The notes below the pieces were generated by a model. The model saw only the letters and a list, made by a program, of their open reading frames with translations, ran no database searches and was not told where the DNA came from. Positions 4,261 to 33,023 of a DNA stretch of 33,023 bases are shown piece after piece. The translations under genes were made by a program, and so were the position numbers. Position 1 is the first letter of the stretch; every line of letters starts with the position of its first letter. This stretch comes from a virus: the IMG/VR virus record IMGVR_UViG_3300044970_002357, positions 1 to 33,023 of that record, one strand, 5' to 3'.

Positions 4261-4280
4261 TAGTGACAAACCGCGAAATC

Positions 4281-5429
4281 ATGAGATTCCATTGCCCCGG
4301 CCTGCCGCACACCGTTACTTCCCCCGAGTACAACGCCTGCGCGTTTACGCAAAAGGTCCTCAAGCTGTGCAAAGGGCTCCACCACGCGGGGCACCACGTC
4401 ACGCACTATGGGCATGAGGAGTCGCAGGTTGAGTGCACTGAGCACGTGACGGTGAGCACCAACGCAAACCTGCAGGAGGCGTACGGGTCGTACGATTGGC
4501 GCCGCGAGTTTTTCCGGCACAACACGGGCGACGCGGCTTACCGAAATTTTATGGGGCGCGCGTTGCCAGCGATTGCGCAGCGTAAACGTCCCGGGGACTT
4601 TTTACTGATCCCGTTTGGCTGGGGGCACGCTGCGCTGTGCGACGCAAACCAGGACATCCACGTGGTGGAGTCCGGCATTGGGTACCCGTGGGTTTTGCCG
4701 CGCGAAAAAGCGCGGTGGAAAGTGTTTGAGTCCTACGCGGTCCGGAATGCCGTACACGGCCGCGAGCGCGTCGAGCGGGCAAACAATGACGATTACGAGG
4801 TTGTCATCCCGAATTATTTTGAGCCGGAAGATTTTGGCCCGCTTTCCGTCGGGCAAGGGTATATCCTTTACCTCGGCCGCATCACGCGCGCAAAAGGCGT
4901 GCACATCGTCGCCGAGGCGTGCGCGCGGGCGGGGCGCAAACTGATCATTGCCGGGCAGGGCGACCTTGCAAAAGAGTACTCTGGCCCGACCGATCACATA
5001 ACGCTGCACGGTTACGCAGACATGCAGCAGCGGCGCGATTTAATGCGGCGCGCGGATTGCCTTATGATCCCGAGCCAGTACATCGAGCCTTTTGGCGGCG
5101 TGGCCGTGGAGGCCATGATGAGCGGGACGCCGGTTATCACGAGCGACACCGGGGCGTTTACCGAGTGGGTGGTGCAAGGCCGCAATGGCTACCGCTGCCG
5201 CACGATGGGACAGTACGAGTGGGCGCTCAATAATGTCGGCCTGCTAGACCGCTACGCGATTCGAAATTTTGCCCGGGACAATTTTTCTTTGTCCGTGGTT
5301 GTGCCGCAGTTCCTTGAATTTTTTCGCATGGTTGAGGACGTGCGCACCGGCGCCGGTTGGTATTCAGAACACCGCGAGTCGGCGATACAAATAGGGGCGC
5401 TGGATTTTTCGGCGTTGTATGTCGATTGA
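4281..5429 (+). CDS. Glycosyltransferase, GT4 family, 382 aa
   Basis: The product has the GT-B architecture of retaining GT4 enzymes. There is an acceptor-side N-terminal half (MRFHCPGLPHTV...ACAFTQKVLKLC), then ILYLGRITRAKGVHIV at the start of the nucleotide-sugar half, and the E-x7-E motif EPFGGVAVE (E269, E277), followed by AMMSGTPVITSDTGAF. The ATG at 4281 is chosen because the family N-terminus starts there; a GTG at 4263 is in frame. The enzyme should transfer a sugar from an activated donor. Plausible targets are host surface polysaccharide (superinfection exclusion), phage virions or DNA; the sequence does not decide. It overlaps the next gene by 11 bp. Confidence 0.85.
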   Translation: MRFHCPGLPHTVTSPEYNACAFTQKVLKLCKGLHHAGHHVTHYGHEESQVECTEHVTVSTNANLQEAYGSYDWRREFFRHNTGDAAYRNFMGRALPAIAQRKRPGDFLLIPFGWGHAALCDANQDIHVVESGIGYPWVLPREKARWKVFESYAVRNAVHGRERVERANNDDYEVVIPNYFEPEDFGPLSVGQGYILYLGRITRAKGVHIVAEACARAGRKLIIAGQGDLAKEYSGPTDHITLHGYADMQQRRDLMRRADCLMIPSQYIEPFGGVAVEAMMSGTPVITSDTGAFTEWVVQGRNGYRCRTMGQYEWALNNVGLLDRYAIRNFARDNFSLSVVVPQFLEFFRMVEDVRTGAGWYSEHRESAIQIGALDFSALYVD

Positions 5430-8117: not shown

Positions 8118-8259
8118 TTTTTTGTTCGTCGCATTTTGGGCAAAATGGGTCTAACTCACCATCCCACTCCATGTCAGCTGCGCAGTGCGGACAAAGTGGG
8201 AGCTCGGGAAGCTCTGGCTCACTTGTGAGCCAGTTGTCGTACCAGCGGGGAAGAGTCAT
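8107..8259 (-). CDS. Small zinc-ribbon protein, 50 aa
   Basis: The ATG at 8259 overlaps the upstream stop (ATGA) and is preferred over an in-frame start at 8355, which would lie inside the upstream gene. Two CxxC pairs (CPHC and CPKC, about residues 28-44) flank a short acidic loop (AADMEWDGELDPF), the signature of a zinc ribbon. It probably binds zinc and a protein or nucleic-acid partner. Confidence 0.65.
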   Translation of the reverse strand: MTLPRWYDNWLTSEPELPELPLCPHCAADMEWDGELDPFCPKCDEQKNEH

Positions 8260-8420
8260 TTTTTTTCGATTTGCAGGGCTGCGGCGTAGCACATTCCAAG
8301 GCTGAGGATTCCGAGGCCCGCAAAAATTGCGGCCTCCCATTGCCCGGCAAACCACCGGGCCCCGAAAGCGTCAAAATACGCCAAAGCTCCCGACGCGGCA
8401 AAGATTTGTGAACGGTTCAT
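8256..8420 (-). CDS. Small membrane protein, 54 aa
   Basis: This short leftward frame starts with ATG at 8420 and ends overlapping the zinc-ribbon ATG. The product begins MNRSQIFAASGALAYFDAFG and has one clear membrane helix at about residues 30-50 (AAIFAGLGILSLGMCYAAAL), ending QIEKK. It fits the gap in the operon exactly. It could be an early membrane protein such as a superinfection-exclusion factor; that is an inference from topology and location only. Confidence 0.65.
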   Translation of the reverse strand: MNRSQIFAASGALAYFDAFGARWFAGQWEAAIFAGLGILSLGMCYAAALQIEKK

Positions 8421-8432
8421 TTTTTGAAACGG

Positions 8433-8606
8433 TTAGCGGCCGACTTGCGCAGCGGTAAAGGTACGGCGTTCCGACCAGAGCGGCAGGCCATTTTTGCCGG
8501 TGGCGGTGATTGTGGCGGTGTACATGCCGTCTTTACGGCGGCGAATGTTGCCAAGCGTGCCGGTGCCGTTGCGGCCGATGCGGTAAGGTGCGGGGATTGT
8601 GGTCAT
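8433..8606 (-). CDS. Hypothetical protein, 57 aa
   Basis: The ATG at 8606 is chosen because it follows a CA-rich leader (CAACCAACCAACAACAAC) almost the same as that of the first gene of the operon; an in-frame start at 8648 would run into that gene. The product is basic, with beta-strand character (RRRKDGMYTATITATGKNG) and ends FTAAQVGR. No family was recognised. Confidence 0.6.
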   Translation of the reverse strand: MTTIPAPYRIGRNGTGTLGNIRRRKDGMYTATITATGKNGLPLWSERRTFTAAQVGR

Positions 8607-8634
8607 GTTGTTGTTGGTTGGTTGTTTGTTAAAA

Positions 8635-8826
8635 CTAACTGTTGGCACCGAAACAGGTGCTCGGAAGTTCTATGCCTTCTTCACCGTCTTCAAAAATAAG
8701 CTCTAGGCCGTTGCTTGCCACGGCGAGAACAACGGCTCGATGCAATTTGCCGTCGTCGTCGCAGTGGGTAACCATTTGCCCCGCCGTGAAGGTTTCATTT
8801 TCGTTGTGGTAGTTTAGTGTTGTCAT
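8635..8826 (-). CDS. Hypothetical protein, SH3-like, 63 aa, first gene of leftward operon
   Basis: The ATG at 8826 lies 34 nt downstream of a -10 box (TAGAGT) whose promoter overlaps the 18-bp operator. The start at 8988 in the same frame lies upstream of the promoter and is rejected. The product (TAGQMVTHCDDDGKLHRAVV then LELIFEDGEEGIEL) reads as a small beta-barrel of the SH3 or Tudor type. Being first in the operon, it should be the most strongly and directly controlled product. Confidence 0.65.
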   Translation of the reverse strand: MTTLNYHNENETFTAGQMVTHCDDDGKLHRAVVLAVASNGLELIFEDGEEGIELPSTCFGANS

Positions 8827-8860
8827 GTTGTTGGTTGGTTGGTTGCTGCTAACGACAACA

Positions 8861-8890
8861 ACTCTAGCCAACGCTTGCGCAAATGCAAGC
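8861..8890 (-). promoter_or_regulatory. Promoter with 18-bp operator for leftward operon
   Basis: Reading leftward, GCTTGCATTTGCGCAAGC (8890-8873) is an inverted repeat with 6-bp perfect arms. Its TTGCAT serves as -35, followed by a 16-nt spacer and the -10 TAGAGT (8866-8861). The same operator, -35, spacer and -10 occur at 12879-12908. A protein bound to the repeat would cover the -35 and block transcription, unless it acts as an activator. Confidence 0.7.
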
Positions 8891-8950
8891 GGTTTGTGTA
8901 AATTTTTTTTGCGTTGTAAAATGCGGATTGCCAGCGTTTTGCAAAAGCGG

Positions 8951-8983
8951 CGCGCCCCGAGCGCAAAAAATTCTCGGGGCGCG
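8951..8983 (-). terminator. Intrinsic terminator behind recE-recT-sigma4 operon
   Basis: CGCGCCCCGAG (8951-8961) and CTCGGGGCGCG (8973-8983) form a perfect 11-bp stem with an 11-nt A-rich loop. On the rightward strand a six-T run follows (8988-8993). On the leftward strand the tail is only CCGCTTTTGC. It lies 21 nt after the last leftward gene of that operon, so it probably works leftward and may be bidirectional, insulating the next promoter. Confidence 0.75.
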
Positions 8984-9004
8984 CGCATTTTTTACGGCCA
9001 GGCG

Positions 9005-9310
9005 TTATGTGTCGAGTTCTTGAATTTTGATCCACAGCAAAAGTTTCTTCCGAATTCGTCGAACGCACTTTTTTTCAATCTGTTGCGCTGTCAAAACACA
9101 GATTTTTGCCCGCTTTGAAACCGTTTTTAAGGTTTCTGGAACACCCGTGACAAATCCGTAGCGTGTTTTTAGTACCAGCTGGGATCTTTCCGGTAACTCG
9201 CCGAGGACTTCATGGATTTTTTCACAGAGATCATCCGTGAGCGTGATCGGTTTAAATTTTTTTAACAAATCAGGATCACGACATTCTGTGATTCGACCGC
9301 TTCTGTTCAT
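9005..9310 (-). CDS. Sigma-70 region 4-like protein, 101 aa
   Basis: Residues about 38-90 carry GELPERSQLVLKTRYGF, then TLKTVSKRAKICVLTAQQIE and KKCVRRIRKKL. This follows the layout of sigma factor region 4: a LPER...VL..RYG helix, a linker, then a helix-turn-helix ending in QIEKKAL.KLRK. Regions 2 and 3 are absent and the whole protein is only 101 residues, so it cannot be a complete sigma factor. It may bind the RNA polymerase beta flap or a -35 element as an accessory or appropriator factor. It is the last gene of the recombination operon, 15 nt behind recT. Confidence 0.75.
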   Translation of the reverse strand: MNRSGRITECRDPDLLKKFKPITLTDDLCEKIHEVLGELPERSQLVLKTRYGFVTGVPETLKTVSKRAKICVLTAQQIEKKCVRRIRKKLLLWIKIQELDT

Positions 9311-9325
9311 TTTGCGCGCATTTTT

Positions 9326-10051
9326 TTACAGCCAGTCGTCGGCGGCTGGCTCTGCCACTGGAGCCGCGGGCGCAGCCTCAACAACGGCAACGGGTTCCGC
9401 GGCAACCTCGGCGGCCTGCACGGGTTTTGCTTTGGCAAGCCGTTTATTCACATCCGCCGCGCGGTCAACGCGTTCCGGATGCCCGTGCACGTCCTCGACC
9501 TCGTCCGCGGCGTGCATGCCCGACAACACGTCAGGGGCGTACAGGCGCCCGAAAAACGCCGCAGCGCGGTACCTCAACATTAACTCCGGCATCGTTTTCC
9601 ATTTGGATCCGTTTTTTGTCGACCAGCCCTCGGCCTTAGCCATCGCGATGGACGCCGGGGGGCCCTCGAGTTCCTCCCCGGTCGATCGATCGTATGCCCA
9701 CGCGCGGCAGCTTGCGGCTTCACCTTCGCCCTCGATGCGGAACCGAATCGGGGAGAACCGCCCGCACGAATTGAGCGCCGCGATAATGAACGACGACGAC
9801 CAGGAGGGGCGCCCGTGGATGATGTGTAGGTTCTGCATCACCGCCAGCGGGCTCGCGCCGATTCGCTGGCTCATTTCAAGCGCGATGAGCGCGTTCCCGA
9901 TTTTTTCAGCGCCACGGTATTGCTCTGGAACGAGGTCCGAGCTGCAGAGGGCTTTTGCCATGCGTTGGGCGGCCTCAAATCCGGCGACCCCGGAAAACGC
10001 GGTAAGCTGGGTGTTGTTGTTAGTGGGTGTTGTTGTTGTTGCGAGTTCCAT
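9326..10051 (-). CDS. recT: RecT-family single-strand annealing protein, 241 aa
   Basis: The core (FEAAQRMAKALCSSDLVPEQY, then GNALIALEMSQRIGASPLAV, MQNLHIIHGRPSWSSSFII, and a CRAWAYDRSTGEELEG segment) matches phage RecT-like annealases. These pair complementary single strands during phage recombination and replication. The C-terminus is a low-complexity alanine, proline and glutamate tail ending ADDWL, reminiscent of acidic tips that recruit partners. It lies 12 nt downstream of a RecE-like nuclease, the usual partner. The leader (CTAACCATTCACCAAC) lacks an SD. Confidence 0.8.
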   Translation of the reverse strand: MELATTTTPTNNNTQLTAFSGVAGFEAAQRMAKALCSSDLVPEQYRGAEKIGNALIALEMSQRIGASPLAVMQNLHIIHGRPSWSSSFIIAALNSCGRFSPIRFRIEGEGEAASCRAWAYDRSTGEELEGPPASIAMAKAEGWSTKNGSKWKTMPELMLRYRAAAFFGRLYAPDVLSGMHAADEVEDVHGHPERVDRAADVNKRLAKAKPVQAAEVAAEPVAVVEAAPAAPVAEPAADDWL

Positions 10052-10063
10052 GTTGGTGAATGG

Positions 10064-10891
10064 TTAGATTTTGGCAAATGCGGGGATAGTCAGCGGTTGG
10101 GCATCAGTCGGAAAACCGGGCCATGACCCGGAATCAAGGCACGACTTATAAGTCTCCAAGTCCGCTTTGTAAGCAGCGCGGCCTGCGTCAACAAATTCGT
10201 CGGTAGCGACAAACACCTGGACAAGATAAGGAGGCTCTTTTTCGACGGCGATGAAAACAAACGACTCTGCCGGGTGTTGCAGCGTCCGCAGCGCGTCGAG
10301 GTAAAACGCAGCTTGCACGTGATATCGGAATTTCCACGCGTCGCGTTGAAACGCATCGGCGCTGGCGTTTGTCGTGGTCTTGAGGTCCACCACAAGCGCG
10401 TCTGTCGTTACCTGATCGGGCCGCGCGCGGCACCGAACGCCGGTGTCGGTGTCAGTCCAGTATAGCGACATCTCCGCGGTGGAGGGGTGCCCCGCGGCAA
10501 GGATGCGGCCTGCAGTTGGGTGGGCGTGCACCGCGTCGGCAATGAGTTGCAGTTCCCTGTGCTCGTCTTCCGTTACAGGCTCACGTCCGCACGCTTCGAG
10601 AATAAACGCCTCCCACGCTTCTTTTCCGGCTTTTGTGCGACGGTCAATTCCTGCAGGCGTGATTGCGGTTTCCCGCGCCACGTTTTCTGGCTCAAGAGTA
10701 TACAGGTGGACCAGCATGCCCCAACGCTGCGCCGGGGTGCGGGTTTCCGGGGGCGCAGTCAGGCGGGCGTGGTACACGGCCGGAGCGCGGCGGATGAGGT
10801 CCAGCCCGTGTTTGCTAACACGGGTCTTGTCCGCGTGATATTCAGCCGCGGGTAGGTTTTCGACGATTTTGTTTTCGGTTGTTGATGTCAT
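10064..10891 (-). CDS. RecE-like PD-(D/E)XK exonuclease, 275 aa
   Basis: Sequence marks include LPAAEYHADKTRVSKHGLDL near the N-terminus, RWGMLVHLYTLEP, then GVRCRARPDQVTTDALVVDLKTT (the D...D-x-K active-site core) and WKFRYHVQAAFYLDAL. This is the PDDEXK-like putative exonuclease family found beside RecT, which resects dsDNA 5' to 3'. The ATG at 10891 is preferred to the in-frame ATG at 10969, because the operator-promoter lies between them and the family match begins after 10891. It is the first gene of the leftward recombination operon. Confidence 0.8.
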   Translation of the reverse strand: MTSTTENKIVENLPAAEYHADKTRVSKHGLDLIRRAPAVYHARLTAPPETRTPAQRWGMLVHLYTLEPENVARETAITPAGIDRRTKAGKEAWEAFILEACGREPVTEDEHRELQLIADAVHAHPTAGRILAAGHPSTAEMSLYWTDTDTGVRCRARPDQVTTDALVVDLKTTTNASADAFQRDAWKFRYHVQAAFYLDALRTLQHPAESFVFIAVEKEPPYLVQVFVATDEFVDAGRAAYKADLETYKSCLDSGSWPGFPTDAQPLTIPAFAKI

Positions 10892-10931
10892 ATTTTTTTG
10901 CCCGGTTTTGGGCGTTGGCATTTCAATCTGG

Positions 10932-10962
10932 GCTTGCAGCGTTGCAAGCAATTTTTTATCGT
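10932..10962 (+). promoter_or_regulatory. Divergent control region with 18-bp operator
   Basis: GCTTGCAGCGTTGCAAGC (10932-10949) has perfect 7-bp arms (GCTTGCA/TGCAAGC). Rightward, TTGCAG (10934-10939) with a 17-nt spacer to TATCGT (10957-10962) makes a promoter whose start would fall at or next to the HTH gene ATG at 10968, implying a leaderless mRNA. Leftward, TTGCAA (10947-10942) with a 16-nt spacer to TGAAAT (10925-10920) could drive the RecE-like gene. One operator could therefore control both directions. Confidence 0.65.
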
Positions 10963-10967
10963 AGAGC

Positions 10968-11156
10968 ATGAGCTTGACCAGTTCGACCGCGATTCTTGCA
11001 GCTTTAGACGCTCAAAGAAAGGCACTTCCGATAAGTCGGAAAAAATGGCTGCGGGCTGCACGTGTCGCGGAGTCAACGTTCTACCGGTGGCAAAACGGGC
11101 AGACCGAGCCGACTTTTCGCACGCTGCAACGACTCGAACGTGCGCTGGTGAAATGA
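10968..11156 (+). CDS. Small XRE/Cro-type HTH regulator, 62 aa
   Basis: The product reads MSLTSSTAILAALDAQRKAL, then ISRKKWLRAARVAESTFYRW and QNGQTEPTFRTLQRLERALV. The VAESTFYRWQNGQTEPTFRTL segment is a Cro/C1-type helix-turn-helix and covers most of the protein, so it is a single DNA-binding domain. It is the first rightward gene behind the 18-bp operator and overlaps the helicase (ATGA). Cro-like size and position suggest that it represses its own promoter and the two other operator sites. No larger CI-type repressor is present. Confidence 0.75.
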   Translation: MSLTSSTAILAALDAQRKALPISRKKWLRAARVAESTFYRWQNGQTEPTFRTLQRLERALVK

Positions 11157-12538
11157 CGCTGCGGCCGTACCAGGAGGAGGCCATTGGCGCAGTCCGTGCG
11201 GCGTTTGCTGCGGGGCGGCGCGCGCCGTTGTTGGTCGCCCCTACGGGGGCCGGGAAGACCGTCATGTTTTGCTACATAACGCAGGGAGCAAAAGCGAAGG
11301 GCCGCCGAGTGATGATTCTGGCGCACCGGGCCGAGCTTCTTGACCAAACGTCACGCGCGTTGATGGGACTGGGAATCTCGCACGGCATGATCGCCGCTGG
11401 ACGCACGGCAGACCGCACCGAAGCCGTGCAGGTCGCCGGGGTGCAGACGCTGGTGCGGCGTCTGGGCAATACGTCACCGCCGGACTTGCTTGTGATTGAT
11501 GAGGCCCACCACGCTGCGGCCGGAAGCTGGCGCGCGATCGTGCAGGCGTTTCCAGCGGCAAAGATTCTCGGCGTGACAGCGACGCCAGAGCGCCTCGATG
11601 GGAAAGGGCTGGGGGACGTATTCGACGATTTGATCCGCGGGCCGGAAGTGGCGGATTTAATTACCGCGGGTTTTTTGTCGCGGCCCGTGTACTACGCCCC
11701 AACAACGGCGAGCCTCGACGGCGTGCGCACGACCGCGGGCGATTACAACAAGGCGGACATCGAGCAGGCCGTGAACCGGCCGACCATCACGGGAGACGCA
11801 GTGACGCACTACCGGCGTTTGTGCGCAGGTGTGCCGGCAATTGCCTTTTGCACTTCGATCGCGCACGCGGAGAACGTTGCGGCTAATTTCCGCGAGGCGG
11901 GCTTTCGGTGGGGCGTGATCGACGGCACGATGACCCCGGAAGACCGGCGGCAGGCTGTCGCTGACCTTGGCACCGGCGCGCTGCACGGCTTGTCCTCGTG
12001 TGAGATTGTCAGCGAGGGGTTTGATTTGCCATGCGTCACAGCGGCAATTTTACTGCGGCCGACAAAATCGCTGGCGTTATACCTGCAGCAGGTCGGGCGC
12101 GTGCTCAGGCCGCATCCTGGCAAACAAAACGCAGTCATCCTCGACCACGTGGGCAACGTGATCCGCCACGGGTTGGCGGAGGAGGTGCGGGAATGGTCTC
12201 TCGATGGCGACGAAGAGCGGCGGAAAAAACGCAAAGCGGATGACGGCATGAAAAACCGGCAGTGCCCGTCATGTTATGCGGTCCACGCGCCCGGGCCCGT
12301 TTGCCCGTTGTGCGGGCATGAGTACGAGGTCAAGGGCCGCCAGGTGGTGGAAGTCGCCGGCGAGCTTGAGCAACTCAACGCCGAGCGGTTGGCTGCGATA
12401 ACAAAAAGGCAGGGGCAGGGCAACGCGCGCACGCTCGGTGAGCTGGTCGCGCTCGGCCGAGCGAGGGGGTATAAAAACCCGGCCGCGTGGGCGAGTCACA
12501 TCATCACCGCGCGGCGCAAACGGGGGGTGCCCGCATGA
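11153..12538 (+). CDS. SF2 DEAH-box helicase, 461 aa
   Basis: The ATG at 11153 overlaps the regulator stop and is chosen over a far upstream in-frame start at 10898. Superfamily 2 motifs are clear: motif I APTGAGKT (residues 29-36), DEAH (116-119), GVTATPERLDGKG, and QQVGRVLRPHPGKQNAVILD. A C-terminal CxxC...CxxC zinc knuckle (CPSCYAVHAPGPVCPLC) follows. The helicase is expected to unwind or translocate on DNA at replication or recombination intermediates. It is coupled to the VRR-NUC gene by ATGA. Confidence 0.85.
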   Translation: MTLRPYQEEAIGAVRAAFAAGRRAPLLVAPTGAGKTVMFCYITQGAKAKGRRVMILAHRAELLDQTSRALMGLGISHGMIAAGRTADRTEAVQVAGVQTLVRRLGNTSPPDLLVIDEAHHAAAGSWRAIVQAFPAAKILGVTATPERLDGKGLGDVFDDLIRGPEVADLITAGFLSRPVYYAPTTASLDGVRTTAGDYNKADIEQAVNRPTITGDAVTHYRRLCAGVPAIAFCTSIAHAENVAANFREAGFRWGVIDGTMTPEDRRQAVADLGTGALHGLSSCEIVSEGFDLPCVTAAILLRPTKSLALYLQQVGRVLRPHPGKQNAVILDHVGNVIRHGLAEEVREWSLDGDEERRKKRKADDGMKNRQCPSCYAVHAPGPVCPLCGHEYEVKGRQVVEVAGELEQLNAERLAAITKRQGQGNARTLGELVALGRARGYKNPAAWASHIITARRKRGVPA

Positions 12539-12873
12539 GCGAAAAACTTTTGCAGTCGCAAATCATGCGCGAGCTTGGCAGTCGGCCGGACGTGCGCATT
12601 TTTCGCAACCAGGTGGGCACGTATCGGCTTGAGGACGGGCGCATGATCACCTCGGGGCTTTGCAAAGGGTCCGCGGACCTTGTCGGGTGGCAAACCGTTA
12701 CCATCACGCAAGATATGGTTGGGCAGCAGGCTGCGGTTTTTCTTTCGGTGGAGGTCAAAGGCGAACGCACGCGCGTTACGCCAGAGCAAGAAAACTGGGC
12801 GGCGTTTGTTAAAAAATGCGGCGGCAAAGCTGTGATTGCCAGAAGTTTACAAGACGCGGAAAAAATCCTGTAA
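12535..12873 (+). CDS. VRR-NUC nuclease, 112 aa
   Basis: The ATG at 12535 overlaps the helicase stop. The product is a compact VRR-NUC domain of the restriction-endonuclease fold: SEKLLQSQIMRELGSRPDV, the glycine-aspartate segment GLCKGSADLVGW, LSVEVKGE (the E-x-K of the active site) and TPEQENWAAFVKKCGGKAVI. Phage members of this family are structure-specific endonucleases, often next to helicases. Pairing with the SF2 helicase suggests processing of branched replication intermediates. Confidence 0.85.
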   Translation: MSEKLLQSQIMRELGSRPDVRIFRNQVGTYRLEDGRMITSGLCKGSADLVGWQTVTITQDMVGQQAAVFLSVEVKGERTRVTPEQENWAAFVKKCGGKAVIARSLQDAEKIL

Positions 12874-12878
12874 AAATC

Positions 12879-12908
12879 GCTTGCATCCTTGCAAGCGGCG
12901 GCTAGAGT
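12879..12908 (+). promoter_or_regulatory. Promoter with 18-bp operator for gene 12916
   Basis: GCTTGCATCCTTGCAAGC (12879-12896) has perfect 7-bp arms. TTGCAT (12881-12886), a 16-nt spacer and TAGAGT (12903-12908) form a promoter with the same geometry as the one at 8861-8890. The ATG at 12916 begins 8 nt after the end of the -10, so the transcript should begin at or within 1-2 nt of the start codon (leaderless). Confidence 0.75.
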
Positions 12909-12915
12909 GGGGCGC

Positions 12916-13266
12916 ATGACAACCACCATCGCTTACAAACTTCCCTCCGGCCGCTCCGCAGTTATCACCGTTGCCCCAGAAAAAAATTGGGATGGCACTA
13001 TCACGGCCGCCACAACAGCGACAGTTGAGGGTGTTGGCAGACCGATTTTAGGCGGCCGTACCAAGTTGGCGGGCATGCCCGCGTGGGCGGTTAGCTGCAT
13101 CGGCAAGCTGCCGCTGAATGCTGAGATTGACGCGCAGGTGAGTGCCGCTGAGGCTGCCATCAATGCAGCGCATTCCGAGCACAACGCAACCGCAGTTGCG
13201 CACGTTGCCGAGTTGGCAGCAGTCAGCGCCAGCAGCGCGATGATGGAGCGTAAAATGGCATACTAA
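12916..13266 (+). CDS. Hypothetical early phage protein, 116 aa
   Basis: The ATG at 12916 follows the -10 box directly; no SD is present, in line with a leaderless transcript. The product begins MTTTIAYKLPSGRSAVITVA, has GMPAWAVSCIGKLPLNAEID in the middle and an alanine-rich helix at the end. The W-A-V-x-x-I-G-K-L-P-L-x-x-E motif resembles an unnamed phage protein family recalled from other genomes. The gene forms a one-gene transcription unit between operator 3 and the terminator at 13281. Confidence 0.7.
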   Translation: MTTTIAYKLPSGRSAVITVAPEKNWDGTITAATTATVEGVGRPILGGRTKLAGMPAWAVSCIGKLPLNAEIDAQVSAAEAAINAAHSEHNATAVAHVAELAAVSASSAMMERKMAY

Positions 13267-16358: not shown

Positions 16359-16623
16359 CACGTTGACGACTCGCACAAACGCACGCAGTGTGAAGGGGTG
16401 AACAACACACTGCACCGGACCAGACCGCAGGGCATGCGATTGCCAACGCTTGGCGGGCGATTGCTGGGCGTTTGGAGAGCAAAGTGGGTGGATACAGCGG
16501 ACGGGGTGGTAAACGGGCACAGAAACGGCCGCGGGAACAAAAACGGGGGCAGGGGTAGGGGGGGGAAGGAATCTCTTTGGGCGGAAACTGTCGACGCTGG
16601 TTGCCGCATATTTTTAAAAAAAC

Positions 16624-31460: not shown

Positions 31461-33023
31461 GTTGCCCAACCTCTTGTGAAATTATCGTTTGCGAAATCCT
31501 AGCCGGAGCACCAGGCGCTTTTGGCGGCGCTCAGGGGGCGACCGGGGCCACGGGGCCGATTGGCGCAACGGGCGTTGGAGCAACAGGAGCCACCGGCGAG
31601 ATTGGCGCGACAGGCCTCGCTGGTGCTACGGGCCCCGCAGGCGCAACCGGCGCGGGTGAGACCGGAGCAACAGGAGCCACCGGATCTATTGGTGCCACAG
31701 GCCCCGCAGGCGCGACCGGCGCGGGTGAGACCGGAGCAACAGGAGCCACCGGACTTGTCGGAGCATCGGGTGAAGCAGGCCCCGCAGGCGCAACCGGCGC
31801 GACGGGATCGGCTGGAGAAGTCGGGGCAACTGGCATTGCAGGGCCAACAGGTTCAACGGGGGACGCTGGAGCCACCGGGCCCGTTGGGGCCACTGGTGAA
31901 GCTGGCACTGCTGGAGCAACCGGCGAAGTCGGACCTACTGGAGCCACTGGCGAAGTTGGGCCCGCAGGCGCGACCGGCGCAACAGGTGAAGCTGGGACTG
32001 CTGGCGCGACCGGGGAAACCGGGCCTACAGGCGCAACGGGCGCGGGCGCAACCGGAGCGACGGGACCGTCCGGGGCTCAAGGCCCCTCAGGGATCAGTTC
32101 AACCGACGCTTATTGGGGATCCTTTTGGAGCACAATTGACCAGACAGCGGCAGGGCCAAATGTTGGGAACCCAATTATTTACAACAACACCGACCCTGAT
32201 TCTGTAGGCGTGTCGGTTGTGTCGCAAAGTCGCGTAACATTTTCAACGGCAGGCGTTTATTCCGTAACATTTAGCGTCCAATGGGTTAATACGGACAACC
32301 AAATTCACGACGCCAGCATTTGGCTGGCGAAAAATGGCTTTACGGTTCCCGACACGGACTCACGCTGGAGTGTGGTGGAATCGCACGGCGGTGTTGATGG
32401 CCACGCTGTCGGCACTGTTAATTTTGTCTTAAAATTGGCGGCGAGCGATTACCTCGAGCTTTATTGGCAAACGACAAACCCTGCGGTGAGCCTTCAGTTT
32501 ATTCCGGCGGCAGACCCCGCCCCGGCGATTCCGAGTGTGATTTTAACCGCAACGCAAGTGCTCTACGGGCAGCTTGGGCCAAGCGGTGCCACGGGCGCAA
32601 CAGGGACGCAGGGCGGAATCGGCGCGACAGGTCCGTCTGGAATTCAAGGGGCAACTGGAGCCGAAGGGCCAACAGGCGCAACAGGCGCCGAAGGACCAAC
32701 TGGGGCGACGGGCGTTGAAGGCGCGACAGGCCCCTCTGGAGCCGAAGGGCCAACAGGCGCAACAGGCGCCGAAGGACCAACTGGGGCGACGGGCGTTGAA
32801 GGCGCGACAGGTCCTTCTGGAGCCGAAGGGCCAACAGGCGCAACAGGCGCCGAAGGACCAACTGGGGCGACGGGCGTTGAAGGCGCGACAGGTCCTTCTG
32901 GAGCCGAAGGGCCAACAGGATCGACAGGCGTCGAAGGGCCAACGGGGGCAACGGGCGTTGAAGGCGCAACGGGCCCCTCTGGAGCCGAGGGCCCAACAGG
33001 ATCGACAGGCGTCGAAGGGCCAA
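31457..33023 (+). CDS. Collagen-like tail fibre, N-terminal part (continues at position 1)
   Basis: The frame opens at an ATG that overlaps the previous stop (ATGA) and stays open to the window end. It continues in frame at position 1 because bases 32912-33023 equal bases 1-112; the joined gene would encode about 910 residues. After a short N-terminal segment with three cysteines comes a long run of Gly-X-Y triplets rich in GAT, GPT and GPA (roughly residues 17-212). A non-collagenous beta-like domain follows (about nt 32090-32570), then a second collagen block made of 81-bp repeats. Collagen-like rods are known in phage tail fibres and probably form a trimeric stalk. The position at the end of the tail genes fits a receptor-binding fibre. 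The repeat number at the junction could be wrong in the assembly. Confidence 0.85.
32657..33023 (+). repeat. 81-bp in-frame tandem repeat in the fibre gene
   Basis: Units of 81 bp (27 residues, pattern [19 protein letters not shown] then VEGATGPS) start at 32657, 32738, 32819 and 32900, with a partial unit from 32981. The first three are almost identical; the fourth differs (GSTGVEGP in place of GATGAEGP). Because 81 is a multiple of 3, gain or loss of a unit changes fibre length without breaking the frame. The window ends fall in this array. Confidence 0.9.
32912..33023. repeat. Terminal direct repeat, right copy
   Basis: Identical to 1-112. Removing one copy gives a circle of 32,911 bp. 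Within it, a 31-bp piece occurs twice (32912-32942 and 32993-33023), so the number of 81-bp units at the junction is not certain. Confidence 0.85.

Follow-up and report, generated by a model that had tools for sequence, protein, structure and literature searches.

A lone sigma region 4 domain in a phage genome

The window analysed in this report is the complete 33,023-nucleotide stretch of viral DNA held as IMG/VR record IMGVR_UViG_3300044970_002357, and its feature of interest is a small gene whose product is related to region 4 of sigma-70 factors:

9005..9310, minus strand: gene for a region-4-only protein of 101 amino acids, pI 9.7, with region 4 at residues 28-90 and the recognition helix VLTAQQIE where RpoD has RERIRQIE

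The open reading frame (ORF) runs from an ATG start to a TAA stop and contains the motifs that an earlier reading made from the letters alone (the sequence-only reading) had taken for a region 4 layout; an open frame of 101 codons would arise by chance at this base composition with p ~0.0013. Profile comparison bears out that layout. The protein matches the whole of the Pfam Sigma70_r4 profile (PF04545, positions 1-50 of 50) at residues 35-88 with 31.4 bits and E=1.3e-7, above the gathering cut-off of 24.1 bits, as well as the NCBIfam RpoD C-term model TIGR02393 at residues 23-89 (E=3.2e-10) and PHROG 351, "RNA polymerase sigma factor" (E=1.1e-4), and its best PDB match is region 4 of C. difficile SigA (E=1.4e-6). 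Judged by these matches, the resemblance to region 4 is beyond chance and is nearest to the primary sigma factors RpoD/SigA. Sigma-70 factors of the RpoD group bind the core and melt promoters by means of region 2, which this protein, consisting of region 4 alone, does not have; Sigma70_r2 (PF04542) finds no match anywhere in the window, even at E<=10. At the level of domain profiles, the description of the product as only region 4 holds for the 33-kb record, in agreement with the earlier statement that a protein without regions 2 and 3 cannot melt a promoter by itself. The protein is strongly basic (net charge +8.6), with a basic helix KKCVRRIRKK and the C terminus LLLWIKIQELDT. No close relative was confirmed in IMG/VR, and none was seen in the RecT or terminase loci that were fetched.

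Loss of the -35 contacts

When the recognition helix is aligned to RpoD, it reads ICVLTAQQIE in place of VTRERIRQIE. We compared the protein with 44 region 4 sequences from phage contigs (alignment A3), which had been collected with a pattern that covered the RER-RQ motif. Nine of the 13 positions conserved at >=90% in the other 44 are retained (L551, R554, R562, G564, T572, L573, Q589, I590 and E591), and the four that are lost are R584V, E585L, R586T and R588Q; random losses would strike exactly those four of 13 with a chance of 1/715. RER(I/V)RQ is also present in all Verrucomicrobiota RpoD sequences compared, which were retrieved by plain protein similarity with no motif filter. The -35 recognition residues of the RpoD group are R584, E585 and R588: a crystal structure has R584 and E585 touching the -31/-33 bases, and substitutions at the three positions make recognition of -31 and -33 within the -35 element less specific (PMC2613000). 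The phage protein has V72, L73 and Q76 there, and because R584, E585, R586 and R588 are all replaced, normal -35 reading has very likely been lost. The sequence-only reading had overlooked this replacement. The residues that contact the DNA backbone are kept (R554, R562, L573, Q589, K593 and R596), and the changed face of the helix is hydrophobic (V72, L73 and A75). A frameshift as the source of the odd recognition helix was considered and ruled out, as the other two frames of GCAAAAATCTGTGTTTTGACAGCGCAACAGATTGAA, read by eye, hold no RERIRQIE.

Structure prediction without an alignment was unusable, with a predicted local distance difference test (pLDDT) score of 42.7. Given 44 phage-borne region 4 rows, AlphaFold2 produced a model with a pLDDT of 83.8 overall and 93-98 in the core, which superposes on solved SigA region 4 chains (e.g., 4g8x and 6onu) at ~1.3 Å over ~60 residues and contains an unbroken helix at residues 72-100. 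Foldseek gave weak E-values, 0.0023 at best, which is to be expected of so small a domain. Since the input alignment was itself made of region 4 sequences, the model supports the fold but is no independent proof of it. Overall, the protein shares with region 4 of RpoD/SigA (PF04545) the domain order, the scaffold residues and the fold, with ~37-45% identity to Verrucomicrobiota RpoD over ~60 residues, and it differs in having none of regions 1-3, in the replacement of R584/E585/R586/R588 and in the absence of the His-Pro-x-Arg break before helix 5.

An accessory gene at the end of the recE-recT unit

The gene lies behind two recombination genes and is surrounded by repeated and structured sequence elements:

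9326..10051, minus strand: RecT-like single-stranded DNA annealing protein, 241 amino acids, directly upstream (PHROG 561, E=8.9e-83)
10064..10969, minus strand: RecE/exonuclease VIII-like protein, 301 amino acids (PF12684, E=9.2e-29; PHROG 412, E=1.1e-82)
9314..9339, no strand: copy of a direct repeat at the recT 3' end, GCGCGCATTTTTTTACAGCCAGTCGT, from a repeat search
8981..9005, no strand: second direct-repeat copy, slightly diverged, just past the region 4 gene, from the same search; sister contigs have one copy
8943..8991, minus strand: GC-rich hairpin downstream of the region 4 gene (folding z -2.1), also found directly after recT in the sisters

Only 15 nucleotides separate the end of recT from the start of the region 4 gene on the same strand, and co-transcription with recE-recT is plausible. 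The sister contigs that cover the site, L002 and L003 (RecT 93% identical), both lack exactly this segment: window positions 9314-12929 and 8826-9005 correspond to contiguous sequence in them, and the repeats at 8981-9005 and 9314-9339 bracket what is inserted. The gene has a GC content of 41.8% and a third-position GC content (GC3) of 41.2%, versus 59.2% GC for the genome and a GC3 of 0.55-0.76 for the other genes, and ~0.003% of 306-base stretches of the window are lower in GC. Missing from syntenic contigs at exact ends and deviating in composition, it has the hallmarks of a phage moron, or accessory gene, and we conclude that it is an accessory insert, probably acquired horizontally. The simplest reading is that it was gained in this lineage; a deletion between the repeats in the sisters, that is, loss rather than gain, may also account for the pattern.

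The accessory status of the gene bears on its function. Because sister phages do without it, an obligatory role as a middle or late regulator is unlikely. The sequence-only reading had proposed a switch to middle or late promoters, and this proposal is unsupported in view of the absence of the gene from both covering sisters, the lack of any other strong region 4 match in the sisters (including the sister records found by terminase) and the foreign composition. The slot next to terminase is a frequent seat of late activators, and in the phage contig L276 a region 4 gene adjoins terminase; the gene described here does not occupy that slot. Nor does its location appear as unusual for a transcription factor as had been supposed, since a gene for region 4 alone also lies immediately upstream of recE and erf in another phage, L304. 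More distant RecT relatives have various other small ORFs after recT, and none has a region 4 match over the cut-off except G046, where it is far from recT; the matches in the G046 phage come partly from ECF-like sigma proteins of ~160 amino acids.

Several smaller observations concern the same neighbourhood. The stretch after recT (8118-9313) is a variable slot, in which L002 and L003 hold a different ORF of 107-108 amino acids. The GC-rich hairpin, which in L002 carries a paired change from G-C to A-T, is possibly a terminator, a processing site or a DNA element; a scan for terminators did not call it, and a promoter scan found nothing promoter-like ahead of the region 4 gene. An inverted repeat, CGCTTGCGCAAATGCAAGCG at 8872-8891, lies ~50 bases from the hairpin and is conserved in both sisters. 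Within 8635-10051 on the minus strand, several early genes are preceded by CAA-rich leaders with no Shine-Dalgarno motif (e.g., CAACCAACCAACCAACAACATG), and AGGA, GGAG or GAGG occurs upstream of only ~6 of the 33 genes checked.

Relation to known proteins

Phage proteins made of region 4 alone have been seen before. Among the 76 contigs obtained in a scan with alignment A2 are several with complete small proteins carrying a lone Sigma70_r4 domain, namely L273 (99 amino acids), L276 (127), L291 (131), L294 (175) and L304 (127-153), while L300 has a partial region 3 besides region 4 and L302 has a second helix-turn-helix (HTH). BFVD likewise holds phage proteins of 94-142 amino acids named Sigma70_r4, e.g., A0A6J5LKM7 (94), A0A6J5S254 (136) and A0A8S5Q5G5 (106). 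A region 2 protein was missing from 7 of the 8 lone-region-4 phage records tested, some of which are fragments. Our protein shares with these the small size, the phage origin and the single Sigma70_r4 domain, and it differs in that those compared keep the RER-RQ motif (43-44 of 44 at each position in A3); Pfam scores reach 51-65 bits in eight of the 44, versus 31 for this protein. The architecture is thus already known, and the novelty lies in the erasure of the -35 contacts and in the position as a moron.

A kinship with T4 AsiA, gp33 or gp55, as the sequence-only reading had it, does not fit what is known of these proteins. T4 gp55 is region-2-like, and PF04542 found no partner of this type in the window, though proteins like gp55 have diverged strongly. 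AsiA, for its part, binds to region 4 of sigma (PMC2988021). gp33 takes the beta-flap site of sigma region 4 and reads no DNA sequence (PMC2988020, PMC7892883), represses basal transcription (PMC2988020) and is not structurally related to sigma region 4 (PMC7892883). Common descent with any of the three is unsupported, and the mode of action of gp33 alone offers a fair analogy: the two proteins are of similar size (112 and 101 amino acids) and may work in a similar way. They differ in that gp33 lacks sequence similarity to sigma and works as a late co-activator with gp55 and gp45, whereas the phage gene is dispensable in the sisters. The split sigma factor SigO-RsoA of B. subtilis is comparable in having sigma domains on separate proteins (PMC10141391), but there a partner with the remaining sigma domains exists, whereas no region 2 is detectable in the phage window.

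Interpretation

Our best explanation, which we advance tentatively and rate a little short of probable, is that the gene is a moron encoding an RpoD-derived mimic of region 4 that acts at host RNA polymerase without reading the -35 element. We infer that the gene was gained, probably by horizontal transfer, at the 3' end of the recE-recT unit, and that its product, an RpoD-type region 4 freed from the rest of sigma and deprived of -35 base reading, would compete through helices 1-2 with host sigma region 4 for the tip of the beta flap. Alternatively, the basic C-terminal helix might hold the protein on DNA beside the flap. In either case -35-dependent host promoters would be weakened, or promoter choice altered, early in infection. 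In a stronger version, the free domain blocks the beta flap as a sigma-derived counterpart of gp33/AsiA, silencing -35-dependent host promoters, and is spread as a moron; this seems to us doubtful.

Binding to the flap is possible, and the residue evidence for it is mixed. Six core-binding positions are listed for RpoD of E. coli (PMC4943231); the phage protein has the same residue at one of them (R562) and conservative changes at three (F563Y, I565F and L598I). A number of points weigh against the explanation that we favour. The other two core-binding positions are lost (E555S and G577S) and F580 of the core is Ala, so flap binding may be weakened. His-Pro-x-Arg, which precedes helix 5 in RpoD, is KKLL here, and with this break lost and one long helix modelled, the helix 5 contacts may differ. 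The invariance of the motif in A3 is partly an artefact of the search pattern, the sister contigs covering the site number just two, and selection on the protein is unmeasurable because no relative was found outside the window. The charge of +8.6, finally, would also fit a plain DNA-binding protein.

That last point leads to the view that the protein descends from region 4 but has become a small HTH regulator that binds DNA with a new specificity, either without involvement of RNA polymerase or as a repressor or activator at phage or host sites. The basic helix and the retained backbone contacts would serve such a regulator together with the high charge, and altered residues in the recognition helix are what altered specificity would predict. 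However, the closest family is region 4 bound to RNA polymerase, and a changed face made of V72, L73 and A75 is unusual for base reading, and we consider such a regulator unlikely. It is also improbable that the gene is a functionless relic, a piece of a sigma gene captured from a host or a phage and now drifting: the lack of relatives, the foreign composition and the loss of functional residues speak for drift, but the 101-codon frame is intact, the losses are concentrated in the recognition helix with the scaffold retained, and phage genomes tend to discard useless DNA. A frequent role of moron genes lies in competition or in control of the host, which would suit a decoy imitating host sigma region 4 in order to bind anti-sigma factors, host activators or the AsiA-like proteins of rival phages, but we know of no region-4-binding partner for this host and regard a decoy as very unlikely. 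It would be in keeping with the basic residues K81, R84, R85 and R87, which keep or strengthen the charge at the docking site of activators on sigma70, positions 593-599 (PMC2988021).

If the moron does encode a region 4 mimic acting at host RNA polymerase, a host sigma domain would have become a modulator of the polymerase once four contact residues were lost. This would be a simple route to host take-over, and lost -35 contacts could be used to search for it among the many lone Sigma70_r4 proteins of phages. A mimic of this kind would also mean that a lone region 4 protein need not be the late-gene activator of its phage.

Host and genome record

The record represents a freshwater phage whose host, judging from sequence comparisons, is probably a member of the Verrucomicrobiota. 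Terminase relatives at 27-43% identity occur in 16 of 388 Verrucomicrobiota genomes, the nearest isolated phage is Verrucomicrobia phage P8625 (23%), and the best RpoD region 4 matches of the phage protein reach 37.7 bits in Verrucomicrobiota versus ~19-28 bits elsewhere, where few genomes of other phyla were compared. Capture of the domain from a Verrucomicrobiota-type host is possible; ~60 residues at ~40% identity cannot prove this source, and with its low GC the gene may have come from another donor. Short region 4 frames in the Verrucomicrobiota genomes G285, G306 and G476 were set aside, since they lie at contig ends and are probably cut RpoD genes.

The window ends (1-217 and 32464-33023) fall within collagen-like repeats that run on without a break in the sister record L182, and the window is therefore probably a near-complete genome cut in this repeat. 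Sister contigs L105, L110 and L115 all start exactly at the equivalent of window position 16597, just ahead of a gene resembling the small terminase; this position may be a genome end (cos or pac). A glycosyltransferase-like gene at 4263-5429 on the plus strand, beside lysis and tail genes, is retained in the sisters.
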